From a virus, in the IMG/VR virus record IMGVR_UViG_3300005510_000009, positions 1 through 36,954 of that record: a stretch of DNA of 36,954 nucleotides. One strand, 5' to 3'. How positions within the stretch are numbered: position 1 is the stretch's first letter; every line of letters begins with the position of its first letter. A program made the translations under genes and the position numbers. Below are positions 1 through 20,538 of the stretch, one piece after another. The notes beneath the pieces are model-generated. The model had not been told where the DNA came from, did not search any database, and was given only the letters and a program-made list of their open reading frames with translations.

Positions 1-3000
1 GTTTCTTCGTCAATAGCTATCTGCCATTCAGGCCAACCACCCATAAGTGCTAATCGTTCCCAAAGCTCTTTGTCAGCTTCTGTAGCGGCTATAACGTTTT
101 CAACTTTTCTTATAGCTCTATCTAATGGTACATTTGTAGTTGCCGATATTACATTTGCACCTGCTAAATACGCTGGATTGTCAAAGCTAAAACCTTCACT
201 CATCATTTTATCTTTATCCCATTGATAAGCTCTAGCAGCTTGATTTATTTTAGAAAGTTTAGAAGAAATTGGTGGAGATATTTTAGTTAGTTCATAACCA
301 ACTTTTTCTAGTTTAGGTTGTTTCTTTTCTTGCTCACGTATAATACGTATTATAGCGTTTTTAGTAACTGATATAGCAGCACCACCAACACCGGCTCCTC
401 GCAACATAGAATCTGCCATACCATTTGCTGTGTCTATATATTTATTTTCATATTTTTCATCATCAGCATCTGCTTCGCCAAAAGCTATAGCAAACAAACC
501 TTGTTGTAGTGAATTAAATATTAAGTTTTGTACAGTAGTATAATATATAATTTTACTAATGTTTGTTTTAGCATCTCCTCTACCCGCTCTTAAATCTTTA
601 ATAGCTTTATCAGTTAGCCTTAAATATTGAGAAGGAGTATTACCAAACGCAAGTATAGGTCTACCTAATGGACCAGCTTGCTGCATTGATATTCTATCAG
701 GTCTTGAAGACTGTTGTGACTCTTCTGCTGTTTCTCTAAAATCTTCAAACGCTTTAGCCTCCGCTTCAGCTCTACTTAATCCTTGCTTTTCATAAGTTTT
801 AATTCTATTTCGATAAAACGTAGCACCACCAGATGCGATTGCAAAACTATCTGCTAATTGTGTAGGTGTAAAACCAAATTGTAATAATCTATTAACAACA
901 CCCCGTGGCCCATTTTTATTAGCAGCTTCTGCAATGTCAGCTTCATTAACGTTCATTTGTAAACCTCCACGACGTTCTTTTAAAAAGTCGGAGTTCATTA
1001 AGTATTTAAAGTCTTTCCAATATTGTTTTTGATTACCAAAAGCTTTTGCAGCTGCTATCGGATTGTTATCCGTAAAGTTTACAAAGTTAACAGAAGATAT
1101 AGTTTGCAATAAAGATGATCTTGTATTGAAGAACATTGTTACACCAATACTACCATTAAGCCAGTCTGTAAATCTAGCTGTTAAACCATCATCTGAGAAA
1201 GATCTATTACGACCAGTCTTCATGCGTTGTAAACTATTCTCTATAGCTTTACGGTATTTTTTACCATACGCAGCTTCAAGTTTGTTTAAGTTTGCTTCGC
1301 TAAATATCTGATCCACATTTGTCTGCCACTGCTCTAAGTACTTAGCACGTTTAGTAGTATTAAGACCTTCAAGCAAGTCTGTTGTAATACTACCTGTAAG
1401 CCACGTTTCTTTTGGTTTAGCATAACCATCACCTTTGTTAATAGCTACTAGCTGTTCTGCAAATACTTTTAATTCAGGATTATTATTAACAAATTCATTT
1501 AACGTTTTTAAATCCGCCTTGCTAACGCCTGGCACTTCCATACCTTGCAGTGTATTCCAAGTATACACTCTTACAGCTTGCTCTCTTGTGTAAGGTTCGC
1601 CTGGTAATTTTTTACGTAAGTCTTTAGGTATAACTCCAAGTTGTTTTTTCAAAGATTTATAATCATTAAACATAGCAACTCTATCTTTTGATATGTCATT
1701 TATACCGCGGGAAAATGGATCAATAAGATTGTATTTATACCATGCCATTTGTTGATCACCAAGTTTACCTTTACTTAACGTTTCGTAAAGCAAACCTGTA
1801 AAGTCTTGAGCTGAATAAGGTATACCTTTAAATATACTTCCTTTACTAGCACCAACAACTTGAGCTTTAGCTCTGCTATAAACTTTTTCAGAACCAATAC
1901 CAGTTTTAGCCTCTATAATATCATTGAAGTCTTTACTAAGATCTACAGTTTCACTAAATCTAACTTTAGCTTGCTGTGTTTTAGACTTGACGTCAAATAC
2001 TTCTAAAGCATTGCGTACAGCTTTAACGTTTTTATAAGCGTCGTCTACAAAGAAAAAGTCATTGTAACCTTCAGCAGCTTTACCCGTTATCCATCGTGCT
2101 TTCGCTTGAGCTTTACCATCGCCTAAACCAATAATGTTTTCAATAGGTATTTTAACACCAAGCGCATCCATAAATTCTTTAATAGGACCAGCAGCGTCAG
2201 CTGGACGAGCTGTAAGTATGAATACATCTTCAGCACCACGTTTAGCTACAATGTTTTCTACAGCTTTAAATACAGGGCCTTTTTTACCATCAACAACTTT
2301 ACTAAACTCTGCAAAATCAAATGTAGCGCCTTTAGCTTCTAGCTCTCCAGCTCTTTCAGCAAACTGTGTAGCGTTTAGTTTACCAGTTGTACCGTCAGGC
2401 ATTTCGTATATAACTTTACTATTTGATCTAGCTAGAGTATCATCGAAATCAAACACACGTATTTTTTTAACTGGAGCTTTAGGATCAGCCGCTACTTTTA
2501 AGGCTTTGTCTAATGTACCTAGTTCTTCTAGTACTTTTTCATTACTTTGTTTTTCTGTAAAAGAAAGTAAAGGTGGTAGTTCACCATTGTTTTTTGTTTC
2601 AGCTTTTGCCTTACCAGGTTCTAACTTAATGTAATTTTCAGCTAAGCCTTTACCTTCTTTTCTAGACTCCGCTAATGTAATTTTACCACTTAAATAATCT
2701 CTAGTTAATCTAGCTTGCTCTTTTAAAGGCAAACCATTAGATCCAAATAAATACTCGCTAAAAGTTTTATTTGCTGGAAAATACTTGTAGTTATCCATGT
2801 TAACGCCGGATTCTGTCATTCTAATAACAGCGGCAACACCTGGATCTAATTTTACTTTACCACTTAATATAGCCGGTACTATTTCTTTGTAAAAGAACTC
2901 AGGCATTGTGGATTTAAATTTTATATTAACTAAACCATCATCAACTCTAGTTAAACCACCTTGCATATACATAGCTTTTATAAGTGGTCTTACTTTTTCA

Positions 3001-6000
3001 ACGTTACCGTCTATAGCTGCTTGTTCTAATATAGTGCCAATATTATTCTGCGGTGTAGAGTGTTCTTCTCTTAGTTGAACATCTAAAGGTATTTTACCTT
3101 TTTTATTAACGTGCATAAACAAGTTTGGCGCACCAAATCTAAGTATAGAGTTTTGATTGTCTTGCGCGTCTTTAACTATCGCATCGAATACCCAAGCGTC
3201 TTCTGGTTTTTTTGCTAAATGAGATTCTATTGCTTTAAAATAATCAACAAGATTATCAACCTGTTGTTCTTGATTTTTTACAAAATCTTTTTCTTTAGTA
3301 GATTCTACAAATTTTGGTTGAGCAAATCCACCTGCTTTAGTGTATGGAAATCTTTTACCTTTTTGATCTACTTTTAAATTTCTTTTTCCTATAAGCTCTT
3401 CAAATACTTTTCTTGTAGATACAAAACCTCTTTCAGTTCCAGCGGTTACTGAAGACATAGTAGCTTCATATAACTCAGGGTTATCATTTAAAAATTCTTT
3501 TAAAACTCTTTTAGTACCTTCTAAAACTGTTTCACCTTCAAAGCTAGCTATGTCATTAGGTAGTTTTTGAGTTAAGTCTCTTGTAGTGTATTTCTTACCA
3601 GTTTCTTTTGGATTGACAACACCAACGCCCCATTGGTCAAGTTTTTCTGTTCTTGTTATTTTTACATTACTAGGTCTAAAAACTTCTTTTCCTTTTTTAT
3701 CTTTACCTACAGTAAGCCCTGCGGCTTGTTCTATAGACTTAGGTGTTACTTCTTTTTTAGTCTCGCTAAACTTAGCACTTACTTCAGTCTTTGGTTTTTT
3801 ATTTGTAACAATAAAAGTATCATTTTCAAAACCAAATTTCCCGCCAATTTTATCAGCCATTGCCTCTGACAACCTCTTGTACAATCTAATTCTGCTAGGT
3901 TCTTTGGCTGTAAATATAACACCTTCTACATTTGGGTTTTCTTTTAAATAATCTACAACTCCGTTTACATTAACTGAAAATACTTCAGCTGCATTACCAG
4001 CTCCTGTTATACCTATATCTCCCTTCTTATCTGCAAATTGTAAGTGATAAAACTTTTCAGAGCTCGATATATCATCACCTTGTGAGTCTTTTTTTATGTT
4101 TAGTTTTTTAGCTATCTTGTCAATGTCGTCATAAGTTTTACCTTTTTCAAACTCCATGAAAGCAGTTTCTTCTAGTCTAGTAGTATATTTTTTTCCTTTA
4201 ATTTTAAATGAAGTTTGAATATCTTCATCAGTTTCTTTCCACTTTAAATCCTGTCTAGTACTAAGGCTAAACTTAGCACCAGCTGCAGCACGGGCGCCTG
4301 GCTCTGTTATAAGATCTTCAAGCATACGATTACGTATGTGTATAGCTATACCTCCTTTAAGGTTTTGACTAGTAACATCTCTATATATAGGTTTTTCAGC
4401 TTCTCTTTTAATAAAATCTATATAATCTTTTCTAGTTATAGCAAGCTTACCGTCTTTATAAAACTCATTAAGTATATTACGAGGAATAAAAGTACCACCT
4501 TTAATTTTGTCTCTAGTCTCAGGTAGCCTAGCGTAATCAGCAGAAGCGTTATCAATTAAAAACTGTTTAATCCTTGTTAAACCTTCTGAGTCTGTTTTTT
4601 GAAAGTTTCGTCGTTTATCATATATAGCTTCTGGATTAATACCAAACATTTCTCCATATATTTCAGCTACAGATTCAGGTATGTTTCTAGTCTCTCCAAA
4701 TCTAGTTATTTCTTTATCAGCAAAAGCTTGTTTAGTTGCTTCTGTAATTTTAGCCTCAAGCTTCTGCTTGTTTTCTACACCTGCATTTTTAAGTAAAACG
4801 TTTGAATACGACGTGGTTTCAGTAGGTTTTCTAGGGCCTCTTACTTCTTTAGTTACAGTTGGTTCAGCAACTTCTTCAGCAGCTACACCTTTTGCTTCTG
4901 TGACATCTGCAGTAAACTCTTTGCCAACCACTTTTTCAGCAGCATCTATATATCTTTTGAAACCTGTTTTAGTAGAAAAGCTATTGTTTAAAAAACCAGA
5001 AAGTGGTGGAACTTGTTCTCCAGCTTCAACTTTTCTATTATAATCCATTATAACATCAAGCATACCACGTTCCCCGGTTAAAATAGCATCTGTAACTAAC
5101 TCTCTATCATATTGAGGTCTGTTTTCAAACCGCTTAGCAAGCGACGTAGCTGTTGGTTTAAGTAGGTCTAATATCTGCTCGTAACCAGCTATACCTTGCT
5201 CTGCATATATATCATTTACTTTAGCAGAGTCTTCTGCAGTTAAAGATAGTTTAGCAGCTTGATCTGCTACTTCAACTCCTTCAGCTGCTCTTGATATTTC
5301 TTTAGCAGCTTCAATACCCGCTTGTTCACCTTTAGAATAACTTTTAATAAGCTCAAATAAGTTTTTACCAGTCTCAGCATTTAACTGTAGGTTTTCTACA
5401 CCTTTTTTACGTAGAAAAGGAACAAGATTTTCAAGACTATTACCTATGTTTTCTTTAAATACTATTTGTTTACTTCTAATAGCGTCAGACAACGTTGTTA
5501 AATATTCTTCGTAATAATCTTTTTTAGCTCTTTCATTTCCATTAGCATCAAATCTATAGTTAGCATCTATTCTTTCTTGAACAACATCACGCTGCTTAGG
5601 TGTAAGCTCCGCTAATACTTCATCTATAATTCTAATACCGTCTTCAGTTACTTCACCACGCTCGTTTTTTAAAGCATCTCTTAAAATAAAGTGACCAGTT
5701 TCATGTGTGTCAACCGTAAAGTTTCTAATGTTTTTAACTTGTGTTTCATTAACATAGTACTTTTTAGAAACAGGATCGTAAAAACCATCAGCACTACTAA
5801 CGTTTCTAGGTTCATTTGGAAAAGCTTCGTCATATATTTTTTGTAACTCTTCAACACTTTCAACAGAAACTCTTTCACCTTCTTTGGTAGCTTCTAGTAT
5901 TTTTTCAGCTTGAGCAATGTCTGCTGCTCTTAGGTTTTTATAGTAGTCACCTAATGTTTTTTGTATTTTATTATACCTGTAACCACCAGGTTGATACGTC

Positions 6001-8819
6001 TCGTATTTTTCTTCTAAAAATTCTAACTCAACTTTTTCTTCATCGTTAAGTTTCTCTCTTCTTTGAAGCTGTCTCATTCTTTGACCAACTTCAAAAGCAT
6101 CTCTTGAAAAATTATACGACTCCTCTCTTTCTCTAGTGCCTATAGCTGCTTTGAATAAAGGGTTTGAGTTAAGTATTTCGTTTAATATAGTTTCTTTGTT
6201 CCACGCTGATTCTATAGCTTTAGCTTGCTCGCTAGTAGAGTCTATACCGTATCTATCAAATATAATAGGCAATGGCGTGTTAACCATTGTTCTGTTGTCA
6301 AGCTCAGTTAGTTTTTCTCCACGTTGTAATCTATTCACAAGCGTTCTTATATTAGCATCAGTTGGTTTTAAAGCGCTTTTATCTTCTGCTTTTATAGATT
6401 CTTTAGCAATATTTAATTCAGCTTGTGATTGAAGTATGTTATAATCTTCGTTTATTTTTTGAGATCTTGTTAAAAATCCTTGCTGATCTATTACACCGTC
6501 TTGTAATGATTTGCCAAGTTCTGTTATAGCAGCTTCTTTAGAATTTACTATATCTTGAACCGTATTGTCATTTGGTTTTTTAATAGACTCTTCACTATAC
6601 CCAGTATTTTTAGCTGCTCTAGAAACATTTAATGGATTATGCCCTTGCATCGCGCGGATGTCATTTGCGAAAGCAGTTACTAAACCATTTTTTTGAAATA
6701 TAGATTTAGCGCCTAACAATCTCATTTTATAGTACTCGCCTAAAAAATGTTCTATAAAATCAGATGTAGATTTTGGTGTTAAGTTACCATCTCTATCTCT
6801 GTTATAAGCATATCCTTCAAAATCTGTAGCCGCGCTAGCGAACTCAAAAGAAGCTGCACCAACACCTGCACCCGTAACGCTACGAACCCAGTTTCTAGTA
6901 GTTTTAGGTTTACTTAAAGCAGCAAGCATAGGAGTAAATACAGTTTTAGCTGGAAACTTATTTAAAAGAACGTTAGCCGCTCCTTGTCCAGCTCCTAAAA
7001 ACCAAGCAAATTCACCTGTGGCTAAATTTTCTTCAGCTGTTGGAGTGTCTTTTAAACCAACGCTAGCCGCTGCTTGTTCTGAAGCAACAAAAACTGCAGC
7101 TTCATCAACTCCTTTAGCAGTTATATTGATAGCGTTTTTATAGATACCACTTGCTCTACCTAAATTTGTTTTTTTAAACAACTCAGCAGTTTTATTTATA
7201 CCATTAGTTATTTGTTTGACTCCCGGTATTTTTCTTGTAGCATAAACTTGACCAGCAAACAGAGCTAAATCTACAGTTCCACCTCCAATTGCGTTAGCCG
7301 TGATCGGTTTTAAAGCTTCGTTTATATCTTGCTTGTTAATACCTTCGAAGCCAGAGCTTTCCATTACATTTACAAAAGCTTCTACTTCTTCTTGTTGCGT
7401 TTGTTGAGAAGGATTAACATCTCCAAATGGTGTTTTGCTAACTAAACTATCCCAAGCTCCTTGCCAAAAACCGGCTTTGTCTTGTTTAGTAGGATCTAAA
7501 TTTAATTGATAAGCTTTATTTATAGTAATGTAATCTGTAAGAGCAGTATTAAAAGCTTTAGCGAAAGGATGGTCGCTTTTTAATTTAGTTATATCTTCTG
7601 GTATTTCACCTGTGCTTGCTATTTCTTGAATAAGATTTAAACCAGTTTCATATTTAGTATCACCTAAAAATAAATTAACTGGTAGGTCACCTCTTTGAAA
7701 GTGGCTGGCGCCTTTATCAAAGTTTTCTGGATCCGATTGTCTGTAATTATTTAATTTTTTAGCAAGTGCTACGACTTTGTAGTATTGTTTTGTTAACGCG
7801 TTATTAAGCTCTTGTACTTCTGTAGTTTCAGCTTTTTGTCTTGCGTCTTCATTTATTTTTATAATATCATCAGGAGCTTTATCAAAACTATATATTTTAC
7901 CTGTAAAAGGATCATAAAGTTTTTCACCATCTACTTCTTCATCTCTAACAAATCGTCTGCCTTTAGCTCTTACTTTAAAGTTTAAGTTATCTTGATCAGT
8001 TTCTTTTAATTGATTAGATAACTCTTGGTTAGTTACGTTTTCAATAAATATTTGTCTAGCTTTAGGTATATCTATAGATCTTAAATTAGATTCTTCATTT
8101 GGTTTTTTTCCTGTGTAACTAAAAACAACACCGGTTCTATCTGAGTTTTTATAATCTCTTTCTATTTTACTTTTACCAAATAAACCTAAAGGTTTTCCTT
8201 TTTCAAAAGTATTTTCATCTATAGTAAAATCAAATTCATCTGTAACAATTCCCATTCCAGGAACTGTTCCAACAGGCGCTGGGCCTGTGGTTTCATAATA
8301 GCTTAATTCAGGTACATCAAATTCGCCATTTCTTTTTTCTTGAATATATTGTTGTAATTTTTGATGCTGTCTAAGTCTTTCAGTTGGAGTACCACCGGCA
8401 AAAATATCAGATCCTATATATTCTAAAGCTTCACGTTCTAAAGGTTGAACACCTGTAACTACAACTTCTTCGAGTTCTATAGGTTTAGCAGCTTCAATAA
8501 TAGCGTCTTTCTTAGCGTTTTCTTTTCTACGTTTTTTTATTGCTTTTTCGCTATTGTCTATTTTGGGTAAATCCAAAGAAGTATCTTCCGAATCTAATAC
8601 CAAAATCTCGGGTGCTGGCCCGGTTGTCGGTGTTGCAGTCGCACCCTTTGCCGCAGCACCGTTTGTCTTTCCCTCAGTTGGGATTGTTTGTATTTCGTCT
8701 GTAACTTCTACAGTTTCAAGTCCATGCTTGTTAACATACTCATCTACAGATAGCTGCTCATTGTTTGCAGCTTGAGTAACTTCGTCTAGTGTGTATTCAA
8801 ATCCTTGATACTTAAACAT
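1..8819 (-). CDS. giant polyvalent virion protein, 3' end missing at window edge
   Basis: One open frame runs from the ATG at 8819 to base 1 with no stop, giving at least 2939 residues; the C terminus lies outside the window. I checked the frame at several points by hand. Visible parts in order: an N terminus starting MFKYQGFEYTLDEV; Ala/Gly-rich helical stretches; a zincin motif HETGH at about 1039-1043; a domain near 1550-1640 with an 'AKEPSR..LY..L' signature; a HAD-type phosphatase core with DFDDT at 2124-2128, ILTARP at 2201-2206 and paired Asp at 2259-2260; then a long helical tail region. KFS/RFS tripeptides at about 1516, 1683 and 2287 sit at apparent domain borders. This matches large polyvalent proteins of phages, thought to be packaged and injected. 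The role of each domain is inference. It lies 11 bases downstream of the 530-aa gene, last of the structural run. Confidence 0.85.
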   Translation of the reverse strand, partial: MFKYQGFEYTLDEVTQAANNEQLSVDEYVNKHGLETVEVTDEIQTIPTEGKTNGAAAKGATATPTTGPAPEILVLDSEDTSLDLPKIDNSEKAIKKRRKENAKKDAIIEAAKPIELEEVVVTGVQPLEREALEYIGSDIFAGGTPTERLRQHQKLQQYIQEKRNGEFDVPELSYYETTGPAPVGTVPGMGIVTDEFDFTIDENTFEKGKPLGLFGKSKIERDYKNSDRTGVVFSYTGKKPNEESNLRSIDIPKARQIFIENVTNQELSNQLKETDQDNLNFKVRAKGRRFVRDEEVDGEKLYDPFTGKIYSFDKAPDDIIKINEDARQKAETTEVQELNNALTKQYYKVVALAKKLNNYRQSDPENFDKGASHFQRGDLPVNLFLGDTKYETGLNLIQEIASTGEIPEDITKLKSDHPFAKAFNTALTDYITINKAYQLNLDPTKQDKAGFWQGAWDSLVSKTPFGDVNPSQQTQQEEVEAFVNVMESSGFEGINKQDINEALKPITANAIGGGTVDLALFAGQVYATRKIPGVKQITNGINKTAELFKKTNLGRASGIYKNAINITAKGVDEAAVFVASEQAAASVGLKDTPTAEENLATGEFAWFLGAGQGAANVLLNKFPAKTVFTPMLAALSKPKTTRNWVRSVTGAGVGAASFEFASAATDFEGYAYNRDRDGNLTPKSTSDFIEHFLGEYYKMRLLGAKSIFQKNGLVTAFANDIRAMQGHNPLNVSRAAKNTGYSEESIKKPNDNTVQDIVNSKEAAITELGKSLQDGVIDQQGFLTRSQKINEDYNILQSQAELNIAKESIKAEDKSALKPTDANIRTLVNRLQRGEKLTELDNRTMVNTPLPIIFDRYGIDSTSEQAKAIESAWNKETILNEILNSNPLFKAAIGTREREESYNFSRDAFEVGQRMRQLQRREKLNDEEKVELEFLEEKYETYQPGGYRYNKIQKTLGDYYKNLRAADIAQAEKILEATKEGERVSVESVEELQKIYDEAFPNEPRNVSSADGFYDPVSKKYYVNETQVKNIRNFTVDTHETGHFILRDALKNERGEVTEDGIRIIDEVLAELTPKQRDVVQERIDANYRFDANGNERAKKDYYEEYLTTLSDAIRSKQIVFKENIGNSLENLVPFLRKKGVENLQLNAETGKNLFELIKSYSKGEQAGIEAAKEISRAAEGVEVADQAAKLSLTAEDSAKVNDIYAEQGIAGYEQILDLLKPTATSLAKRFENRPQYDRELVTDAILTGERGMLDVIMDYNRKVEAGEQVPPLSGFLNNSFSTKTGFKRYIDAAEKVVGKEFTADVTEAKGVAAEEVAEPTVTKEVRGPRKPTETTSYSNVLLKNAGVENKQKLEAKITEATKQAFADKEITRFGETRNIPESVAEIYGEMFGINPEAIYDKRRNFQKTDSEGLTRIKQFLIDNASADYARLPETRDKIKGGTFIPRNILNEFYKDGKLAITRKDYIDFIKREAEKPIYRDVTSQNLKGGIAIHIRNRMLEDLITEPGARAAAGAKFSLSTRQDLKWKETDEDIQTSFKIKGKKYTTRLEETAFMEFEKGKTYDDIDKIAKKLNIKKDSQGDDISSSEKFYHLQFADKKGDIGITGAGNAAEVFSVNVNGVVDYLKENPNVEGVIFTAKEPSRIRLYKRLSEAMADKIGGKFGFENDTFIVTNKKPKTEVSAKFSETKKEVTPKSIEQAAGLTVGKDKKGKEVFRPSNVKITRTEKLDQWGVGVVNPKETGKKYTTRDLTQKLPNDIASFEGETVLEGTKRVLKEFLNDNPELYEATMSSVTAGTERGFVSTRKVFEELIGKRNLKVDQKGKRFPYTKAGGFAQPKFVESTKEKDFVKNQEQQVDNLVDYFKAIESHLAKKPEDAWVFDAIVKDAQDNQNSILRFGAPNLFMHVNKKGKIPLDVQLREEHSTPQNNIGTILEQAAIDGNVEKVRPLIKAMYMQGGLTRVDDGLVNIKFKSTMPEFFYKEIVPAILSGKVKLDPGVAAVIRMTESGVNMDNYKYFPANKTFSEYLFGSNGLPLKEQARLTRDYLSGKITLAESRKEGKGLAENYIKLEPGKAKAETKNNGELPPLLSFTEKQSNEKVLEELGTLDKALKVAADPKAPVKKIRVFDFDDTLARSNSKVIYEMPDGTTGKLNATQFAERAGELEAKGATFDFAEFSKVVDGKKGPVFKAVENIVAKRGAEDVFILTARPADAAGPIKEFMDALGVKIPIENIIGLGDGKAQAKARWITGKAAEGYNDFFFVDDAYKNVKAVRNALEVFDVKSKTQQAKVRFSETVDLSKDFNDIIEAKTGIGSEKVYSRAKAQVVGASKGSIFKGIPYSAQDFTGLLYETLSKGKLGDQQMAWYKYNLIDPFSRGINDISKDRVAMFNDYKSLKKQLGVIPKDLRKKLPGEPYTREQAVRVYTWNTLQGMEVPGVSKADLKTLNEFVNNNPELKVFAEQLVAINKGDGYAKPKETWLTGSITTDLLEGLNTTKRAKYLEQWQTNVDQIFSEANLNKLEAAYGKKYRKAIENSLQRMKTGRNRSFSDDGLTARFTDWLNGSIGVTMFFNTRSSLLQTISSVNFVNFTDNNPIAAAKAFGNQKQYWKDFKYLMNSDFLKERRGGLQMNVNEADIAEAANKNGPRGVVNRLLQFGFTPTQLADSFAIASGGATFYRNRIKTYEKQGLSRAEAEAKAFEDFRETAEESQQSSRPDRISMQQAGPLGRPILAFGNTPSQYLRLTDKAIKDLRAGRGDAKTNISKIIYYTTVQNLIFNSLQQGLFAIAFGEADADDEKYENKYIDTANGMADSMLRGAGVGGAAISVTKNAIIRIIREQEKKQPKLEKVGYELTKISPPISSKLSKINQAARAYQWDKDKMMSEGFSFDNPAYLAGANVISATTNVPLDRAIRKVENVIAATEADKELWERLALMGGWPEWQIAIDEE

Positions 8820-8830: not shown

Positions 8831-10423
8831 TTAATTAGTTGATAATCCAGGTAGTATAGGTCTTTGTTCAAACGTTTCTATAGACACGCCTTCTATAGGA
8901 TTATCACCTATTAATTTTATTAATTCTTTTTTCATGGCCTCATTTTCTGGAAGCATATTTATTAAAGCTCTAACTCTAGCTGGATCACTTAGATCAAAAG
9001 ACATATCAGTTGTGAATATAGTTTGTTCTTCTCCAGCTACTTTACTACCAGACTTATAGCCTAATTCTATAACAGGCGCAACTTTACCTCCATCAGCAGG
9101 TACAGATCCAGGTAAAACATTAACTTTTAAAATATCTTTACCGCCTACTTTTTTGTTAGTAAAATAAGATTCAGTATTTTGAAAAATATCTGTATAAACC
9201 TGTGGCGCTGCGGCAGCTATTTCTTTAGCTGTTTTAGCAGCTTTTCTTTCTGCAGCTGTAGGTTCTTCAGGCTCAATTTTATTATAGTTACTTGCGTTAC
9301 CACCTTTTTCTTCTAAATCGCTCAAGAACCAATCTGCATAAGCTTTACCAAAAATTTCAGAAGACTCTTCATCAAAAGCTGTACCAACTTGCCCATTAGC
9401 ATATTTTAGCTCAGCGCCTTCAGGGGCGTGTTTATTAAGAACATGCGACCAAATATTTTTAGCTTTTTCAGGAAACTTAAGAAAACTATTTATTTGAGCT
9501 CTAATAAAAGGAGTTGCTGCGGCTTCTATATCTGCAAACTTGATAGGTCTAAACGTGTATTCAAACTGTCCGTTTTCAGTTTTTCTTAATTCTGGTTCTC
9601 CAACAAAGGGATCTTCAAATTTACCATTTTTAAATATACGAGACTCTTCTAAGAATTTATTTCTATCAGCAGTTATGTTTGGTATTTTACCACCATCAAA
9701 AGCAAATAAAACTTTAGGATCAGCTACAACATAGTTGTTTTTAATCTTACCGTCTTTATAAGCCTGTGTTATTTGCTCGCTAGAATATGCTGTTTTAATT
9801 TTCCAATTATCATTTTCATCAAAAAACCATTGTTCTTCTGGATTACGAGTAGCACCTACTCTAACCGGCATAGCAAGTTGGTACTGCTTGGACAAACCTA
9901 CATTTGCATTAACTGTAGATATACCACCTTCTGTGTTTGCTTTAGAATAACCGTCTACATAGTCAGCATAATAGCTTTCATTAGCGTCTTTACCAGCTTG
10001 AATTAATTGAGTTAACTCGTTTATTTTACCGTCCCATAAAGCGTATTCTTGTGCAGCAGCCATTTGAGCTTCTTTAGATGAAGCACTTTTCATCGCCATA
10101 TAAGCTTTAGCTTTTTTATCTATAGCAAAAAGACCAGCTTTGTTAAGGCTGGGATTATTAACCCCAACCTTTTCCATGTTAGCACTAAACTCATCGTAGT
10201 TTTCTAAAACAAATTTAGCGTTATGATCTAAATACTTTTGGGTTTCTTTTACAGCAGTAGAATTTCTGTTTGTTTTTTGCTGTATAACCTTTGCAACAGA
10301 ATTACCTATATTAGTTATAGCTCTAGCGTATTCTCTACCTGAAGAATCTATAACTGTTACTGGGCTTTCATAAGCACCGCCTCTGCTACCGTAGTTTCTT
10401 GAAAATTGTGGTAATTCTGCCAT
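8831..10423 (-). CDS. putative internal virion / structural protein (530 aa)
   Basis: I do not recognise a named family. The protein starts MAELPQFSRNYGSRGG, then residues about 30-170 are predominantly helical, Ala/Lys/Gln-rich and could form long helices. The middle and C-terminal parts are mixed, with an Ala/Glu/Lys-rich helix near 390-410. No signal peptide or membrane span is evident. It is one base from the upstream S74-type gene and 11 bases from the giant polyvalent gene. In podoviruses that position after the tail genes is usually occupied by internal (ejected) virion proteins, so that role is the best guess from context. The ATG follows an A/T-rich leader without a Shine-Dalgarno site. 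Confidence 0.6.
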   Translation of the reverse strand: MAELPQFSRNYGSRGGAYESPVTVIDSSGREYARAITNIGNSVAKVIQQKTNRNSTAVKETQKYLDHNAKFVLENYDEFSANMEKVGVNNPSLNKAGLFAIDKKAKAYMAMKSASSKEAQMAAAQEYALWDGKINELTQLIQAGKDANESYYADYVDGYSKANTEGGISTVNANVGLSKQYQLAMPVRVGATRNPEEQWFFDENDNWKIKTAYSSEQITQAYKDGKIKNNYVVADPKVLFAFDGGKIPNITADRNKFLEESRIFKNGKFEDPFVGEPELRKTENGQFEYTFRPIKFADIEAAATPFIRAQINSFLKFPEKAKNIWSHVLNKHAPEGAELKYANGQVGTAFDEESSEIFGKAYADWFLSDLEEKGGNASNYNKIEPEEPTAAERKAAKTAKEIAAAAPQVYTDIFQNTESYFTNKKVGGKDILKVNVLPGSVPADGGKVAPVIELGYKSGSKVAGEEQTIFTTDMSFDLSDPARVRALINMLPENEAMKKELIKLIGDNPIEGVSIETFEQRPILPGLSTN

Positions 10424-11357: not shown

Positions 11358-11768
11358 TTATAAATTTTTAATTATTTCGTGTGATGGATCTTCGTCAACT
11401 ATCCACCCTAGTTTTTTATGCGTGTTTATCAAATGTTTATTTCTACCTATAGTAAACATATGTATTTTTCCTAACTTCTTACATAGTTCTTCCGCAGAAG
11501 TTATAAGTAACTCTATCGCTTGTTTGCGATCTTTTTCTCTATACTCTGGATCTGAAACTATCCACTCAAGTAAAACAGCATCTGAGTTTGTCATGTATAA
11601 AAACCCAGCACATATTGGTCTACCATTTTTCTCTACCATCAATCCTCCTTTACCGTTGTCGGGTAAAAAAGTTCTTGGCGGACTAACAAGCCATTTAGGC
11701 CAAGACTTCCACCACTCGCATAGAGTTTCATAATCCTCGTCTTTTAATAGACGTGTTTTTAATTCCAT
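11358..11768 (-). CDS. GNAT-like acetyltransferase-fold protein
   Basis: The 136-aa length and the pattern fit a minimal GNAT fold: a strand-helix start (MELKTRLLKDEDYETLCEWW), a central strand with NGRPICAGFLYM, then LLEWIVSDPEYREKD and a helix, then a strand with a late 'INTHKKLGW' helix-strand typical of the GNAT C terminus. The acetyl-CoA pyrophosphate loop, normally Q/RxxGxG/A, reads about REKDRKQA (78-85) and lacks its glycine, so binding may be weak or lost. Small GNAT-like proteins beside internal virion genes are known from podoviruses (T7 gp13 relatives are often annotated this way). A virion assembly role is possible, as is a real acetyltransferase. It sits between the 472-aa tail protein and the S74-type gene with gaps of 5 and 3 bases. 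Confidence 0.7.
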   Translation of the reverse strand: MELKTRLLKDEDYETLCEWWKSWPKWLVSPPRTFLPDNGKGGLMVEKNGRPICAGFLYMTNSDAVLLEWIVSDPEYREKDRKQAIELLITSAEELCKKLGKIHMFTIGRNKHLINTHKKLGWIVDEDPSHEIIKNL

Positions 11769-11773: not shown

Positions 11774-13192
11774 TTAATAACTTGATTCTACGTATTCAGA
11801 TGATACAGCAAATAGCTCTCGGGTTTTACCACCGTTACCCGCTACTTGTGTACTATCATCTGTTCTTATAGTTACAGTTGCATAGTAACCTTTTACACCT
11901 GAAATACTTGCGCCATATATAACTTCTTTAGCCGTCTCTTGACTATTGTTTATAAGGTTAGCTAAATACTTACCTTCTTTTTTGTAGAAACCAGCGTAGT
12001 ACTGTATACCGTTTTGTGTGTAACTACCTTCGTCATAGCTGTAAACTAAATTAGCCGTATCATTTAATTCAAAACCTCTAGCAGCTTCAAACGAAGGAAC
12101 TTCCCAACCGGTAGATCCTTCATAGTTTACTGTTTTAAATACTTTAGATGCGCTGACATTTGGATTAAATATAAATGTTATACTTGAATCGCTGTAAGTA
12201 TCATAGAATATAGATCTATTATCATTAGCATTGCTAAAATAGTTATGCTCCCAAACTTTACCATCATACACACTGTAATATTTATTTTTAACACTAAATA
12301 TTTGTTCTGGTTTATACGTGTATCTACTTGTCCAACCAAGTACAGACTCGTCAAATGACAATGTTTGATAGCTGTTATCACCTGTAGTAGGTATGTTTTG
12401 CCCTTGTAAGCTAACTACATATTGTTTTGTGTATATATCCCAAGCACCTAAAGCTTTTTCCGTAGAACTTAAATTACCTAATTGATCTCTAAAATAATCA
12501 TACATGCCATAGTTAGATATTTCAGTAATACCGTCTTGCGATAATCTAAGCACAGCGTTTCTATTCTTATCTACAAAGTATTTTCTATAACCATACACAG
12601 CAAAGCTTTCTGGATTTTTACTAATACCAAAATTACCAGCGTAAGGAACAATTTGGCCTATAACTAAATTAAGCGTACTTACAGCTGAGCCTTGACCTTC
12701 GGCAGAGTATATAGCGTCTTTGTCTATAAGCGCTCTACTCACTTTGTTCTCTTGGAAGATAACAAGATTAGTATCTTCAGCATATAGCTTTTGTATACTG
12801 CCATTTGCTGGGTCTGCAGATTTAGTTATATCTTCACCTACGCTAAATACGTTAGTATCGTTTATACCTGTTCTAGAGTTAAATATACCAGAATATATTA
12901 ACGAATTAAATCTAATACTTGAATTAGGTTCTTCGTCTACTAAGTAAGCTCTTACACCATAATCAACATTAGTATTATTATAACCACCACGTATTCTAGC
13001 TTCTTCCACAAGCCAACTATCTTGCGCTTCCATGTTTGCTAAACTAACAACAGGATAACCGCCGTTTAAACTATTAGGTACACCTGTACTACCAAGCCAC
13101 GTAGGTAATTGGTCAACACCAACTTGTCTTTCGTTTAACGCCTTCTTTAATATAAAAGAGTTAAAATACTTTACTTCTATTACTGCTCCCAT
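11774..13192 (-). CDS. putative tail structural protein (472 aa, muzzle/hub type)
   Basis: This is a beta-rich, Tyr/Asn/Ser-rich protein. Patterns such as GYRKYFVDKNRNAVLRLSQDG and YDGKVWEHN look like beta-propeller or tail-tube blades, in which the phage protein repeatedly reads out 'value, strand, turn'. No enzyme motif or membrane span is visible. It lies 3 bases after the 1328-aa nozzle-like gene and was probably made together with it. In crAss-like and related podoviruses the genes after the ring proteins encode the tail hub, nozzle and muzzle, which fits. The exact tail component cannot be fixed from sequence alone. The start is the only good ATG near the upstream stop. Confidence 0.65.
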   Translation of the reverse strand: MGAVIEVKYFNSFILKKALNERQVGVDQLPTWLGSTGVPNSLNGGYPVVSLANMEAQDSWLVEEARIRGGYNNTNVDYGVRAYLVDEEPNSSIRFNSLIYSGIFNSRTGINDTNVFSVGEDITKSADPANGSIQKLYAEDTNLVIFQENKVSRALIDKDAIYSAEGQGSAVSTLNLVIGQIVPYAGNFGISKNPESFAVYGYRKYFVDKNRNAVLRLSQDGITEISNYGMYDYFRDQLGNLSSTEKALGAWDIYTKQYVVSLQGQNIPTTGDNSYQTLSFDESVLGWTSRYTYKPEQIFSVKNKYYSVYDGKVWEHNYFSNANDNRSIFYDTYSDSSITFIFNPNVSASKVFKTVNYEGSTGWEVPSFEAARGFELNDTANLVYSYDEGSYTQNGIQYYAGFYKKEGKYLANLINNSQETAKEVIYGASISGVKGYYATVTIRTDDSTQVAGNGGKTRELFAVSSEYVESSY

Positions 13193-13195
13193 ATT

Positions 13196-16100
13196 TTAAT
13201 ATAAACAAGGTTGTGGTGTTGAGTTTACTAATCCATTGCTAAGTATAAAAGCCGTGTAAGCACCTTCTTTAACGTGCTCAGGATTATATATACTATTACC
13301 GTCAGCTGAGTCTACTCTATCCATTCTTCTAAATTTAAAAGAAGATGACGTAGTAGGATTGTATGGCTGTAAAAAATCTGTATCATTATAAAACCTTGTA
13401 ACATATTTTGCAAAAGGTTCTTTAGCATATTTATAAACCCCATTAAAAGTTGAAGAACAACTGGCACTAGGACCTACTATTTCATATCTATAAGTACTTC
13501 CATATGTTTGTTGGTCATTAGGATTTTGAACTTCAATGGGTGGGTTATAAAAATCACCTATTATAAGCTCAGCACCACAAGGGGCTTGGGCTGGTGTACT
13601 ACAATCTACACTATTATCATAAGCACCATAGCTACTCTGCAAGTTGCCTAGTATTATTCTGTAATCACCAATAGTGTTAAATGCGAAAACTAATGCTCCA
13701 AGCGGATCATCATTGATTTGAGCTTGGATGTTAGACACAAACAAACCTCCATTTGATCCATATTGACTATTTGTATTAGTAGTAGCTGTCATACCCGTCG
13801 GGGGTTGGAAGGGCGCGTATTCCCATGTACCACTAGGAACTCCACCGCTTTGGGTTACTGTAGACACGCCATTTAAATCGTTTAAAGATTGCCACCCGAT
13901 GTTTGCACTTGGCCTCTGTTGTATGCTGTATCTTAAATTAACAAAAGTTGAGGGAGGACCAGTAGGATTTGGTTCTCTGTTATAAGGTTGTAAAATAACA
14001 AAAAATGTTCCTTGTGTAAGCGAGCCACTAACTCTTTCATTATAAAATTCAGGGTGGGCACCACCTCCACATATAAAATTACTCACAGGATTGTTTTGAC
14101 TGCTTGCAGGCGCTTGATACCCATTTAACCACCCTTGAAAAGGAGGTTGACTACCTAGAATAGATACTTCGTTACCTGTTAAACTTGAAAAACCACTAGT
14201 TCCAGTAAACCAAAAAGCAGCACCGTCTCCATCGGCAATAGTGTGTATTCCAAAATTACTAAACGCACTATCAGCTGCTGGCTCTCCAAAATTAATATTA
14301 AACGTTTTTGATACCGTAGCACCTCCTGCATCTGTAACTTGCAGGGTAAAACTTTCAATACCAACAGCTGTATTGTCTGAATTTAATACCTCATCGCCGC
14401 TTATAGAAAAAATATTTCTAGATTGACTTGTAATAGCAAAACTTAAATCATCAGTCTCTTTACCACCTAAAGGATTAGAACCGTTTACAGCATCTATTGT
14501 TAATATTAACGATTGTCCTCTTGCAACGTTTATTATACTAGCGTTTGAATTGTTTATTATTGGTGGATTATTTGTTAAAGAACCTGTCTCTGTTGGTGTT
14601 GTGAATACTGGATCACCATTATTGTCTAAAGTTTCTACTGTAAAAGTAAATGTATAAGACTCAAGCTGTGCCGCGTTTATACCATAATAAAAATAAGCAT
14701 TAGTTTGTAGTTTATAAGTACCATTAAGAGCACTAACTTCAACCAAAGTAAACTCACTAGCCCTATTATCTGTAGGATCTAAATCGTCATATACCGATGT
14801 TAATACAGGAGTACTATTAGGTACTATAACTTGACCTTGAACATCAGTAAAAGAAAAATCACCTGTAATATCTACTTGTAATCCATCAGCTTCTTCATGG
14901 TCATAATTAAAATTAATTATTCCAAAAGCTCCATTAGTATCTTGCTGAATAGCTGTATTTAAATCTTCAAGCAAGCCTGCTGTTGTAGATTCCCAAAATA
15001 TGTCTATTCTAGATGTTACAGGTTTTGTTTCAAAAATTGATAAATTTTCAAACTTTTCGTATACTCTAGTGTTTGTATATTCTAAATTGTTTGTACCAAA
15101 TTGATCTGAAGCTGTTTGAGAGGTGATAAATTCTGCTATAAAAGGATTTGATTCAGACCTGTAAAAGGCATAGTAAGGACTATTAGTACTTGTAACTGGT
15201 ATAACGGCTGATCCACCTGCATCAAACTGCGCGGTATCATATAGATCAAACAAGTCTTCTATAGTGTTTGTAGTAAAAGATTTTCTACCTGGAAAATATT
15301 GTCTATTACCTCTTACATTATATGAAATAAAAAAATTATTTTCTACTATACCAAACAACTCGACAGAGCTTCTGAATTGTTTATCTTGAGGACCTACTTC
15401 GGATAAATCTCTAGGTACTTTATTTATATTATCATTTAGCAAAGTTATAAACGACGCGTTTTCATCGGTCAAAGGAATAGAAGGGTTTGCTTGTGTATCA
15501 TAATAAGCTATTCCTTTCATAGCGCCTGGCGCATATACGTTATAATACTCTTGCTCTAACTGTTTAACTACAATTTTATAACTATACCAACCTAAAGGTT
15601 TGTATGCTGGATCTGTAGGATCACCATTATATAGACCAGGTTCTCCAGTCGTGCTAGACTTAGTAGACTGTATAAAGTCATTAAATAATATTTTTAAAGA
15701 ATTACCAATAAAAGCATTTGAATCATAACCCGTAGAAGTAGAATAAGGTAAATAAACAGTATCAGCGCCGTAATCACCAGCTGTTTGAGATGTGTTGTTT
15801 GACAATATAACAGTAGATTGTCTACCGTACTTATCAGCAAGTACAACTCCAACTTGATAATTTCTATTTTGTTTTACAGTGTGGTTGGGATATTCTATAT
15901 TTGTTTTTGCCCAACCAACATCTCCTTCTTCGTTTTTACGTGTAGCAGCTACTTGATAGTCAATACCTGTAGGAGGCGTGTGCTTGTCTTGAAAATTAGC
16001 ATATACAACTCTATTAGATGTAACTTCTTGACCTAAAGCTTTTACTGGTACTTTGTCATAAACCCTAGTTATTTGATTTTCTGGAAGTGTTTTATACGGT

Positions 16101-17182
16101 TTTGTAGAATTATACACATATTCAAACACACTGCTTGTCCCTGTTATTTGAGAAACTGGTATTGTTTCTACAACCTGCAAAGCTAAACCATCTGATTCTT
16201 TATATATAATATCTAATTCAGTTATTTTAAAATCAGAGTTAATATCATCCGCAGCAGAAGGTAGTGGTATTTGTAAAGCTATTTCATTAACTTTGTTTTC
16301 CATAAACTCAACAATAGTACTAGCTACTGTTTGCTGTTCATCACCTGGTAAAAAATAACCATCTTGTTTTGGTATAAAACAAACCTGAGTAAACGGAGCT
16401 ATAAGTGAATACTCGCCATCATCGAATTTAAATCTATAACTAAATCTTACAAACTTATCTTCTAAATATTGTGGATCACCTGGAAAATTAGGATTACCAC
16501 CAGCATCATTACCTGCCCAATAAGGGTTTGTAATATATGAAGAATCATCTAAAGGTATGTATTGACTAAATACATCCTTCATTGTTGTTTCAAAATCTCC
16601 AGGAGATAAAGTAGATTCTTTTATAACTTCTATAGGTTCGTAAGGAAAATATTTAGATACAGATATTTGATCTTCGTTGGTGTAATAATTTGCTTGACCA
16701 AACTGATTAGCTAAATCAACGTTTATTTTTCTAGGTTGGTTTCGATTATCTGTAAAAAATAATAAGTTTTCTAAAATATTAACACCGGTTATAGGAAAAG
16801 CTTTTGAAAAGTTTAAAAAAGCTCCTTCAACTAATTTTGTTAAAGAGTTACCTATAGCATTATATCTATATATAAAATGATTAGAACCAACACCGGTAGG
16901 TGTATAGTTAAAACTCGTATCTGGGTTATCTGTAAAAAATAAATATACAGTAGAATTAGTTTCATCTACTTCTTTACCTATACAACTTAAGTTTGGTATC
17001 CCTAATTCTAAATCAGCAATAGATATATTACCAACCACGTTCTCTAAAGCGCCAACGTCATCACCTTCTGACTTGCTAACCTGTATGTTAACAGCGTCGC
17101 GATATTCACCTTGTGGTATAAGTCTAGCATCAAGGTCTTTGTTCATCTTTGATTTGATGAACGCGTTTTTAACTTCAGCCAT
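13196..17182 (-). CDS. large tail nozzle-like protein with Ig/cadherin-like insertion (1328 aa)
   Basis: The N terminus (KNAFIKSKMNKDLDARLIP, then EYRDAVNIQVS and GALENVVGN) has the 'assign values, build a network' pattern of T7 gp12-like nozzle proteins as found in marine and crAss-like podoviruses. Residues to about 750 are beta-rich and contain blade-like repeats. About 870-965 read as an Ig/cadherin-type module: PPIINNSNASIINVARGQ, then LSFAITS and ending FTLQVTDAGGATVSKTF. Two more beta-rich parts follow, and the C terminus is Ser/Asn/Tyr-rich. The protein is long for this class, and the extra length is mostly the C-terminal third. The Ig-like part could bind surface glycans or other virion parts. 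It is 6 bases after the B2 ring gene, so tail assembly is the likely job. Confidence 0.75.
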   Translation of the reverse strand: MAEVKNAFIKSKMNKDLDARLIPQGEYRDAVNIQVSKSEGDDVGALENVVGNISIADLELGIPNLSCIGKEVDETNSTVYLFFTDNPDTSFNYTPTGVGSNHFIYRYNAIGNSLTKLVEGAFLNFSKAFPITGVNILENLLFFTDNRNQPRKINVDLANQFGQANYYTNEDQISVSKYFPYEPIEVIKESTLSPGDFETTMKDVFSQYIPLDDSSYITNPYWAGNDAGGNPNFPGDPQYLEDKFVRFSYRFKFDDGEYSLIAPFTQVCFIPKQDGYFLPGDEQQTVASTIVEFMENKVNEIALQIPLPSAADDINSDFKITELDIIYKESDGLALQVVETIPVSQITGTSSVFEYVYNSTKPYKTLPENQITRVYDKVPVKALGQEVTSNRVVYANFQDKHTPPTGIDYQVAATRKNEEGDVGWAKTNIEYPNHTVKQNRNYQVGVVLADKYGRQSTVILSNNTSQTAGDYGADTVYLPYSTSTGYDSNAFIGNSLKILFNDFIQSTKSSTTGEPGLYNGDPTDPAYKPLGWYSYKIVVKQLEQEYYNVYAPGAMKGIAYYDTQANPSIPLTDENASFITLLNDNINKVPRDLSEVGPQDKQFRSSVELFGIVENNFFISYNVRGNRQYFPGRKSFTTNTIEDLFDLYDTAQFDAGGSAVIPVTSTNSPYYAFYRSESNPFIAEFITSQTASDQFGTNNLEYTNTRVYEKFENLSIFETKPVTSRIDIFWESTTAGLLEDLNTAIQQDTNGAFGIINFNYDHEEADGLQVDITGDFSFTDVQGQVIVPNSTPVLTSVYDDLDPTDNRASEFTLVEVSALNGTYKLQTNAYFYYGINAAQLESYTFTFTVETLDNNGDPVFTTPTETGSLTNNPPIINNSNASIINVARGQSLILTIDAVNGSNPLGGKETDDLSFAITSQSRNIFSISGDEVLNSDNTAVGIESFTLQVTDAGGATVSKTFNINFGEPAADSAFSNFGIHTIADGDGAAFWFTGTSGFSSLTGNEVSILGSQPPFQGWLNGYQAPASSQNNPVSNFICGGGAHPEFYNERVSGSLTQGTFFVILQPYNREPNPTGPPSTFVNLRYSIQQRPSANIGWQSLNDLNGVSTVTQSGGVPSGTWEYAPFQPPTGMTATTNTNSQYGSNGGLFVSNIQAQINDDPLGALVFAFNTIGDYRIILGNLQSSYGAYDNSVDCSTPAQAPCGAELIIGDFYNPPIEVQNPNDQQTYGSTYRYEIVGPSASCSSTFNGVYKYAKEPFAKYVTRFYNDTDFLQPYNPTTSSSFKFRRMDRVDSADGNSIYNPEHVKEGAYTAFILSNGLVNSTPQPCLY

Positions 17183-17188
17183 TTAATT

Positions 17189-18403
17189 TTAGTGTTTAAT
17201 CCATTTAGATTTACCACGCATAACTTGTACTATTTCGTTAAGCTTTATATTTGATAAACGTATTTTAGCATTTCTAAGTTTAGCGCTACGCTCTTTTTTA
17301 AGTCTTTGAACTACATATTCGTTTATATTAACTCTAGAAGCTAATATAGCATGCGATATATGAGCATAGATAGCTTCTTCTGCCATCTTAGGTATCTTCG
17401 TATCTTCATCAGTAGAAAGCCCATCAGAGATGTACTCTAGCACAACTATTCTATCTACTAAATTAGCAGAAAAAGAAAACTTATTGTATCTTTCGTCTAT
17501 AGTAAAATAACCGTTAGCATTAGCAAACTGTGGATCAAGTCCAAACAGTTGGCCATAGCCAAACTCTGGATAGCCGTAGTAATATTCCCAGCCTAATATA
17601 GTATCGTTAAGTAAATCTTGATTGTTTGCGTTTTTAAGAGAGTTGTTTTTCCAGCGATAGTCTGTTATAGAAGTTGTATCAATATTGTTACCAAACTCAT
17701 CTTGAATTGGCACGCTTTTGTTATCATCTAAAAAAACATCTGTTGGATTTGTAGTGAGACCATCACCTGGCATTATAACATGCTTAACACCAGAGTTATC
17801 TATCCAATATAAGTTAACGTAGTTAACATAATCTTGAGGTATTGGTATACTCAAGTTATGAGGTACAGTAACCTCTAGTTTGTTTACGCTTTTTAAAGTA
17901 TCGTAACTAAATTCTTGTAAACCTCGTTTAGCGTGGAATACAACATCAGTTCTTTTTACGCTTGGTATAAGCTTGCCATCACCTACATATGCTACTAAAA
18001 AGTTATTTACAACGTCATCTAAAGATATATAAGCGTATGATCCGTAGTTTTTCTCTACAGTATTACCGTATGCTTTTTCTTGCGGTGTGCTCGCATAGTT
18101 ACCACCATCTAATTTTTTAAGCTGAACTACAATGTATAATAGATCTGCTGGAGCTACGTCAAAAATAATAGTGTTACCACTCACGGTGTATCCAGAAACA
18201 ACTTCAGACCAACTAGAAGGCTGTGCGTTTGTGCTAGTGTATATTTTAAAATTATTTAAAGCATAGTTTACATTAGTATTACTAGCCGCACCAAAAACTA
18301 AATCAGTGTTAAACGTAGTTATAAATTCTGTAGATGTACCATCGCCTCTAAAACCCTGAGCACCTTCGTAATATTGTCTATTGTTTTCAGTAAGTAGGCT
18401 CAT
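17189..18403 (-). CDS. ring/connector protein B2, fused to an N-terminal beta domain
   Basis: Residues about 125-404 are homologous to the neighbouring 194-aa protein B1. Both share ISLxDVxNNFLxxYxGxGKLIP, then RTxVVFHAxRxLQEFxYxTLKS, and both end with a helix carrying IPKxAEEAxY and an RLxxExxxKLxxAKxRL run. This family is known to me from ring and head-tail connector proteins of crAss-like phages. B2 adds an N-terminal piece of about 110 residues starting MSLLTENNRQYYEGAQGFRG, beta-rich, with SGYTVSGNTIIFDV and VVQLKKLDGG. The addition makes it twice the size of B1. Fourth gene of a duplicated A-B-A-B cassette, 3 bases after A2. Confidence 0.75.
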   Translation of the reverse strand: MSLLTENNRQYYEGAQGFRGDGTSTEFITTFNTDLVFGAASNTNVNYALNNFKIYTSTNAQPSSWSEVVSGYTVSGNTIIFDVAPADLLYIVVQLKKLDGGNYASTPQEKAYGNTVEKNYGSYAYISLDDVVNNFLVAYVGDGKLIPSVKRTDVVFHAKRGLQEFSYDTLKSVNKLEVTVPHNLSIPIPQDYVNYVNLYWIDNSGVKHVIMPGDGLTTNPTDVFLDDNKSVPIQDEFGNNIDTTSITDYRWKNNSLKNANNQDLLNDTILGWEYYYGYPEFGYGQLFGLDPQFANANGYFTIDERYNKFSFSANLVDRIVVLEYISDGLSTDEDTKIPKMAEEAIYAHISHAILASRVNINEYVVQRLKKERSAKLRNAKIRLSNIKLNEIVQVMRGKSKWIKH

Positions 18404-18406
18404 GCG

Positions 18407-19171
18407 TTAACTTTTTTTATTTATTTCATTTTGTTGTATTTCAGAAGCAGCAGCTTGAACAATTTGAGGATCTCTAATTATAATACCAGAATATTGTAAT
18501 ATTCTAAGTATAACATTAACTTGTTCACTAGATTCTAATTCAAAATCTTGTGATGTCGTTGCGTCATAAACATATTGACCTAAATTACCTGGAAAATAAG
18601 CCCATTCTACATTCAAAGGTTTTCTTATAAATGTGGTTTTAACATCGCTTTGGATAGAGCTTGGTAAAACTCTAATTTGTTTATTTTCGTATAAGTATAC
18701 TGGAAAATTTAAACTTGGGGCTGTTAATTCAGATTTTTGTATTTCATAAAAATCATCTCTTTGTAATCTTTCTATTTCAGCAGGATATGCTGCGCTACTA
18801 GGTTCATAAGTTAAAGTACCTATTCTATAAAAAGCAAATTCATTACCAACAGGAACGTCATTATAAACTATCGCGTTACCTGTAAAATCATCTACAGTTG
18901 GTAGTGAAAATCTTCCAGCCGAATAATTAAGATTACCTAAACATTTAAACGTAGATATTTGATCATCTAAATTTACCTGCCTGTCAGTATAATCATAATC
19001 AGCCTGTGGTACTCTTAACTGTTGATTTAGATCATCAAAGTATTGTTCGAATATATCTAATTGTACTTGTGTAGCTGTTTTATTAAACTCATCAGGCGTC
19101 ATGTAACCACGTTGCTCCTTGTTTAATATAAGCAACACGGTTTGATATACGTTGTTTACGTTAATCGCCAT
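18407..19171 (-). CDS. ring/connector protein A2 (254 aa)
   Basis: This is a clear paralogue of A1 (19773-20471). Both begin MAINVNxVYxxVLxIL and share EQRG/EKRG, a TPxEFNKxATQxQ helix, IFxxYFDxLNQxLRxPQ and a DR...LDxxIS segment. After about residue 75 the two diverge, but both keep a VEW/VKW strand and end in a helical, Gln-rich tail. The family recurs beside the B-type ring proteins in crAss-like and related phages, which points to a head-tail connector or ring role. No enzyme motif is present. A2 is followed after 3 bases by B2, and lies 11 bases after B1. Confidence 0.7.
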   Translation of the reverse strand: MAINVNNVYQTVLLILNKEQRGYMTPDEFNKTATQVQLDIFEQYFDDLNQQLRVPQADYDYTDRQVNLDDQISTFKCLGNLNYSAGRFSLPTVDDFTGNAIVYNDVPVGNEFAFYRIGTLTYEPSSAAYPAEIERLQRDDFYEIQKSELTAPSLNFPVYLYENKQIRVLPSSIQSDVKTTFIRKPLNVEWAYFPGNLGQYVYDATTSQDFELESSEQVNVILRILQYSGIIIRDPQIVQAAASEIQQNEINKKS

Positions 19172-19182
19172 GCTATTTTATT

Positions 19183-19767: not shown

Positions 19768-19772
19768 GTCTA

Positions 19773-20523: not shown

Positions 20524-20538
20524 TACTATTGTTACATG

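Follow-up and report, generated by a model that had tools for sequence, protein, structure and literature searches.

In the main text of the paper that founded the concept (Iyer et al. 2017, PMC5512222), polyvalent proteins of phages are thought to be delivered together with the DNA, their zincins being thought to free other domains of the chain. Phage N4 carries in its virion an RNA polymerase, a giant protein tied to a zincin-like domain and to early transcription. Crassviruses, which carry RNA polymerase-associated proteins, were proposed to eject large cargo (gp45-gp50), which would unfold in part to pass through a tail that a muzzle protein closes (PMC10172136). Here, we analyse a linear viral contig of 36,954 bases from a marine bacterial virus (IMG/VR record IMGVR_UViG_3300005510_000009), referred to in its full length as the window, which ends inside the frame of a giant protein of the polyvalent kind. 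Our findings are that this chain places a sigma-70 region-2-like domain directly C-terminal of a zincin-like metallopeptidase domain and, further on, carries a predicted phosphatase domain of the HAD type, similar to the 3'-phosphatase of T4 Pnkp.

Judged by the main text of the founding paper (PMC5512222), the window giant is like phage-type polyvalent proteins in its very long multidomain chain, its zincin hub, its disparate enzymes and the location of its gene in the structural region of a portal-terminase phage: at least two domains of disparate activity (zincin, sigma-like, HAD) share one chain, and genes for terminase, portal and muzzle protein lie in the same window. It differs in adding the sigma-like and Pnkp-like domains, and no N4-type RNA polymerase was found. 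Unlike the N4 protein, it has no detected polymerase module and we propose recruitment of the host polymerase instead; unlike the crassvirus cargo, with which it shares large size and a related tail with a muzzle protein, it unites zincin, sigma-like domain and HAD in one giant. A family search for T7-type RNA polymerases gave no match, but its control was silent as well, so this is no evidence of absence. A sequence-only reading of the window that saw a polyvalent protein fits our data, while its suggestion of an undescribed effector set stands in part: zincins are well known from phage polyvalent proteins, yet the words 'sigma' and 'phosphatase' are both missing from the founding paper's main text.

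The single frame proposed by that reading, at least 2939 amino acids (aa) long and open at the edge, is borne out, and we add that it lies on the minus strand (8819..3). One relative, P0002 (the L003 giant, 2913 aa), has 19 residues beyond the position that matches window residue 2939, and others have Lys-rich tails of similar length past this point. Since relatives stop shortly beyond the window edge, some 15-25 aa are missing at the C terminus and the protein is nearly complete. To put it into a family context, more than 80 relative loci were collected from two scans of viral contigs, and hidden Markov models (HMMs) built from the window protein were run on 68 long giants of about 1850-3330 aa, a few of which are truncated by the end of their contig. 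These models detected the C-terminal domain in all but one of the giants (67), compared with 56 for the zincin, 49 for the sigma-like domain, 42 for the HAD and 38 for a domain we call EEH. The chain is largely helical. No match was found when the whole giant was run against PDB sequences with phmmer, and profile searches of the PDB with the zincin, HAD and EEH alignments returned weak unrelated matches only. AlphaFold2 models were made of multidomain segments rather than single domains and, because Foldseek found no match at E < 0.001 with either of the two, VIA-align was needed for the fold matches below.

As for the zincin, its HETGH motif is above chance, because the His, Glu and His of HExxH together with one downstream Glu are the only invariant columns among 53 sequences whose mean column identity is 13%. 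This Glu sits 62 residues past the last His, and the same result was obtained on domain-only sequences. Peptidase_M78 is matched by 12 of the 52 zincin members (best 8.8e-5), the AlphaFold2 model is confident around HETGH with strands and helices in the expected order, and VIA-align matches the segment to the zincin domain of anthrax lethal factor (residues 572-776, Z 6.0). Judged from alignment and model, the segment is a zincin with its full set of catalytic residues, that is HExxH and a downstream Glu ligand in the expected predicted fold. The zincin HMM also finds gp21 of phage elemoA (5.7e-10) and the giant of ctfjg026 (4.7e-8).

The segment that follows has the family consensus '..FKPI......R...PGF...LL.DEIETG.RGILDLI..Y.P....PLAAYIN..LP.R.IEAS.R' and is similar to region 2 of sigma-70 factors. 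Sigma70_r2 of Pfam is reached by three of 23 single members (best 6e-4) and, in a six-frame genome search, catches the L085 giant itself (E 9.6e-4). With a profile of 42 members against 177,635 PDB sequences, the 17 best of 42 matches were all sigma factors (best E 0.0015), among them RpoS, WhiG, SigA and FliA, and they aligned to region 2. The wider member set came from iterated HMM searches in a small database, so that drift is possible; all members, however, occupy the same slot and were accepted before any comparison to sigma factors. In hhalign, the family scored P 73.5 (E 3e-5) against a small alignment of region 2 from E. coli rpoD, rpoS, rpoH, fliA and rpoE, whereas P was no higher than 0.16 for 60 column shuffles, 0.06 for the reversed profile and no higher than 0.17 for profiles of the zincin, the EEH domain and the HAD; as hhalign E-values are pairwise, significance is better judged from the PDB profile search. 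AlphaFold2 is mostly confident here (predicted local distance difference test, pLDDT, mostly 84-96), and top VIA-align matches of this part are SigmaS, SigA and RpoS region 1.2-2 (Z 6.7-7.2), the isolated RpoS region 1.2-2 (5h6x) matching over 91 of 96 residues and the next unrelated structure reaching Z 4.4. At the level of the family, the segment thus has the sequence features and the predicted fold of region 2. In the 41 giants with both domains, it starts 16-131 aa (median 32) past the zincin.

A separate sigma factor of about 250 aa is encoded in nine of ten relative genomes (L106, L107 and seven others). It has region 2 and probably region 4, with the motif DLIQEGSIGLIKAVDKW. Its co-occurrence with the sigma-like domain may reflect common descent.

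The third activity is predicted from motifs I (DFDDT), II (LTAR) and III (AKAxW), followed by a DD motif; that the HAD motifs vary little or not at all across 36-41 members puts them above chance. PHROG 415 (polynucleotide kinase) is matched by the window protein at E 4e-6, HAD, DUF2608 and PNK3P models are matched weakly by family members, and the best fold match is the T4 Pnkp 3'-phosphatase (5uj0_B, Z 11.1, 119 residues, 2.6 A), further ones being Pnkp1 of the Pnkp1/Rnl/Hen1 complex (4xru_D, Z 10.7) and T4 Pnkp again (2ia5_D, Z 9.8). In sequence and model, the domain is a HAD of the Pnkp 3'-phosphatase type with complete catalytic residues (DxDxT, (S/T)xR, Lys and DD in a Rossmann-like core), its activity being a prediction. 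Both motifs named by the sequence-only reading, HETGH near residue 1039 and a HAD core from 2124, are therefore confirmed and lie in matching folds, as the Peptidase_M78, lethal factor and T4 Pnkp matches show. Unlike T4 Pnkp, the window giant has no linked kinase that we could find, and an RNA ligase was seen in one of ten relative genomes only. In these ten genomes, PHROG 415 matches occur solely in giants, in five of the ten. An RNA-repair operon was considered and rejected on this count, and a classical RNA repair pair is not supported, since the sole genome with a ligase (G006) has itself no detected HAD.

In one relative (L002:15880-15920), the giant is split at the HAD motif by loss of one base in a poly-A run (6 A vs 7 A in the window). 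Programmed frameshifting was rejected as an explanation; because L002 is the only split member, the loss more probably reflects an error in sequencing or a copy that is broken.

Outside the constant C-terminal domain, the giant is a mosaic whose middle is exchanged between relatives, as comparison of the family indicates: residues 226-900 have detectable homologues in just two relatives, most of the last 700 residues in about 70, and L006 can be aligned on both sides of the HAD yet is without the HAD motif. DUF6934, which in L069 scores above the curated cut-off (E 2.2e-6), behaves as if it were an independently insertable module, two copies lying inside the C-terminal domain of L069 (residues 2277-2576) and one inside the HAD of L030 (residues 1372-1456). 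With the sigma-like, DUF6934, EEH and large C-terminal domains, the further compact domain expected by the sequence-only reading is found as well; its inventory was right on zincin and HAD but did not include the sigma-like domain, the exchange of modules or the N-terminal motif described below. The EEH domain has an invariant His (1920) and Arg (2000). Its E-H-x-x-P motif prompted us to consider an HNH nuclease, which we reject: Pfam gives no support, the predicted order is strand, strand, helix with the His ending the second strand, unlike the classical loop, and VIA-align rows barely reached the E-H-x-x-P part.

Turning to the ends of the protein, the first 30-60 residues of the giants are short exchangeable heads of several types, after which about 40 of 63 non-redundant giants have a linear motif with the consensus APEDTESESVDTSLEL. 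An expectation-maximisation (EM) search over these 63 giants gave a log-likelihood of 589 for the motif vs about 293 in shuffles. When the frames of all loci, 655,535 aa in total, were scored, positions above 17 bits lay in the N-terminal part of giants or giant fragments, 44-89 residues past the first Met, with a single exception (a low-complexity antisense frame of 81 aa). Since the matrix was trained on the same sequences, only the specificity figure is independent; that for sensitivity is not. Being specific to giants, the motif may be a packaging or processing signal, which is the simplest guess. A similar stretch, VEENGSLDSSDQKVEDGSLESAESQ, is present at the N terminus of CDS0069 in the cultured Maribacter phage Panino (L114), an otherwise unrelated giant. 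At the other end, the C-terminal domain is common to gp74 of Tenacibaculum phage Gundel_1 (HMM E 1.5e-11) and is a candidate packaging or ejection anchor; known LPD domains such as LPD38 gave no model match in a Pfam scan at E 0.1, and a remote kinship is possible.

Table 1. Features of the giant protein and its neighbourhood in the window.
Feature	Residues of giant	Window positions	Strand	Basis
Giant polyvalent-type protein	2939 aa in window	3..8819	-	Open frame, no stop at edge; full-length relatives
N-terminal head (~35 aa, exchangeable type) and linear motif APEILVLDSEDTSLDL	69-84 (motif)	8568..8819	-	EM motif search
Zincin-like metallopeptidase domain	1005-1183	5271..5807	-	HETGH 1039-1043, third-ligand Glu 1105; alignments, Pfam, AlphaFold2, VIA-align
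Sigma-70 region-2-like domain	1192-1306	4902..5246	-	Pfam, PDB profile search, hhalign, VIA-align
Conserved module 'mid2'	1400-1520	4260..4622	-	Local HMM, 19 sequences including the query
DUF6934 domain	1571-1662	3834..4109	-	PF22028 E 8.3e-5, below curated cut-off
'EEH' domain	1766-2062	2634..3524	-	Local HMM in 38/68 giants; alignment
HAD phosphatase domain (predicted)	2116-2273	2001..2474	-	DFDDT 2124-2128, LTAR 2202-2205, AKARW 2239-2243; phrog_415; fold match
Constant C-terminal helical domain (~700 aa)	2275-2939	3..1997	-	In 67/68 full-length giants
530-aa gene upstream of giant		8831..10423	-	Similar-sized counterpart in relatives; no family match below E 0.01
Solo GNAT acetyltransferase gene		11358..11768	-	PF00583 E 4e-4, above cut-off
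Structural module: muzzle-like, ring and tail proteins, major capsid candidate, portal, large terminase		11774..28744	-	PF25729 and PHROG matches
GroES-like gene		28964..29569	-	
Holin-like gene		30100..30498	-	PF11351
M15 peptidase gene		32282..32644	-	PF08291 E 3e-20
GroEL-like chaperonin gene		34982..36538	-	PHROG 5725 E 2e-132

The giant shares its strand with the structural module, which lies upstream and contains a large terminase (PHROG 6681, E 1e-169), a portal (PHROG 6547, E 8e-142) and a protein with the crassvirus muzzle C-terminal domain (PF25729, E 4e-11), in agreement with the probable crAss-like structural genes of the sequence-only reading. Terminase identity is 63% to ctfjg026, 46% to Flavobacterium elemo phages, 44% to Panino, 38-39% to Cellulophaga phi13:2 and phi38:1 and 31% to Gundel_1. 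Despite the related virion genes we do not claim membership in Crassvirales, because the named phages closest to this one belong to Elemovirus, Pachyviridae and Pervagoviridae. A giant is the last gene of the module in elemoA (gp21, 3694 aa) and ctfjg026 (3859 aa) too, and positional counterparts are gp74 of Gundel_1 (2482 aa), gp101 of phi38:1 (1691 aa) and gp127 of phi13:2 (1990 aa). Most of them (those of elemoA, Gundel_1, phi38:1 and phi13:2) are annotated 'structural protein', which we take as given in the records; the main text of the Gundel paper contains no mention of mass spectrometry.

Other genes of the window include a GroES-like gene adjoining the terminase, a GroEL-like chaperonin gene, and holin-like and M15 peptidase genes that likely form a lysis cassette. 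A solo GNAT gene inside the structural module has a counterpart in ctfjg026; for solo GNATs among late genes, capsid delivery was proposed in the main text of PMC5512222. Some relatives (L089-L104) come from assemblies labelled Aliivibrio, Woesearchaeota, Maricaulis and also Bacteroidota, and are probably viral contigs binned into metagenome assemblies.

How might such a protein work? We propose, with about even confidence, that the giant is virion cargo which the zincin would cut after ejection, so that a sigma-like piece may recruit host RNA polymerase. According to this model, it would be an internal cargo protein, of the polyvalent kind, in the particle of a short-tailed Bacteroidota phage, the constant C-terminal domain and the N-terminal head and motif serving packaging and ejection and the middle providing exchangeable activities. 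Once ejected, the zincin may cut the giant chain or a host target and free the adjacent sigma-like domain, which could then bind host RNA polymerase and help steer it to early phage promoters, a recruitment that would replace the carried polymerase of N4 and crAss phages. The HAD, as a polynucleotide 3'-phosphatase-like enzyme, may repair nucleic-acid ends or remove a phosphorylated defence signal. Our data establish which domains are present, that zincin and HAD have complete catalytic residues, that one segment resembles sigma region 2, that modules are exchanged and where the gene lies; packaging, injection, self-cleavage, polymerase binding and the HAD substrate we infer. A role in the virion is suggested because the giant ends the structural module in relatives, because its counterparts are annotated as structural, and because the zincin is common to elemoA and the C-terminal domain to Gundel_1.

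Several of our observations weigh against this proposal. The location in the virion is putative, being deduced from gene position and counterpart annotation. Taken by itself, the window member stays below the Sigma70_r2 threshold of Pfam, so that its identification as sigma-like rests on the family, and for a domain that is small and helical, Z values near 7 do not decide the matter on their own. Conservation of the region 2.3 aromatics that melt the -10 element is not obvious. Sigma region 4 had no match in Pfam scans of the whole protein, which has long stretches without a confident fold and no fold assigned over residues 1-950. In six related named phages neither the sigma-like domain nor a separate sigma gene was detected, albeit in a search (A9) without a positive control; the five positional counterparts (elemoA, ctfjg026, Gundel_1, phi38:1, phi13:2), although alike in place, also gave no convincing HAD match. 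The near absence of RNA ligase from relative genomes points the same way.

Of the alternatives, one sees the sigma-like segment as a structural helical module, derived from or resembling sigma region 2 and without a role in transcription, in a giant that forms an ejection channel or scaffold and whose zincin acts in maturation. The mostly helical chain, hydrophobic segments ahead of the zincin in some relatives, the weakly conserved promoter-contacting aromatics and the failure to detect the sigma-like domain in about a quarter of giants would all suit such a scenario. To our minds, it is nonetheless rather unlikely, as the likeness to sigma factors is specific (all 17 of the best PDB matches) and persists in highly divergent members, and the clade has its own separate sigma gene. 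Even less probable seems a scenario in which zincin and HAD are host-directed effectors, acting on a host protein and on phosphorylated nucleic-acid ends or signalling nucleotides, while the sigma-like domain serves as a decoy, titrating host RNA polymerase or anti-sigma factors so that host transcription is shut down and not so that phage genes are started. It draws on the proposal, in the main text of PMC5512222, of zincins and nucleotide-targeting enzymes as effectors of polyvalent proteins, and on the undetected promoter-recognising region 4; the tight spacing between zincin and sigma-like domain, being as short as a median of 32 aa, instead fits release of the neighbour by the zincin. Finally, the view that the chain is helical filler in which HExxH and DxDxT occur by chance, for which nothing but the helical character of much of the chain speaks, is refuted here by catalytic sets that are invariant across very diverse relatives, by independent family matches and by fold matches.

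Whereas the polyvalent kind of protein is known, the sigma-like domain beside a zincin, the Pnkp-like HAD, the insertable DUF6934 and the N-terminal motif are new as far as the literature searched shows. Phrase searches of the literature for a virion-carried phage sigma factor found none; the exact-phrase matches that were listed came nearly all from reovirus papers, and no phage sigma factor was the subject of any. In this context, our proposal bears on the way in which related short-tailed phages of Bacteroidota, where no carried polymerase was detected, begin to transcribe their genes. It is only a tentative answer, and one that we would not yet bet on, that they do so by a particle-borne sigma domain within a self-processing giant, injected to point host RNA polymerase at early phage genes. 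The giant family as a whole amounts to a catalogue of exchangeable, probably injected domains on a constant C-terminal domain. If the proposal is true, delivery of a sigma by the virion would replace delivery of a polymerase, which would be a new solution to this problem, and the virus may bring along its own switch for host transcription.
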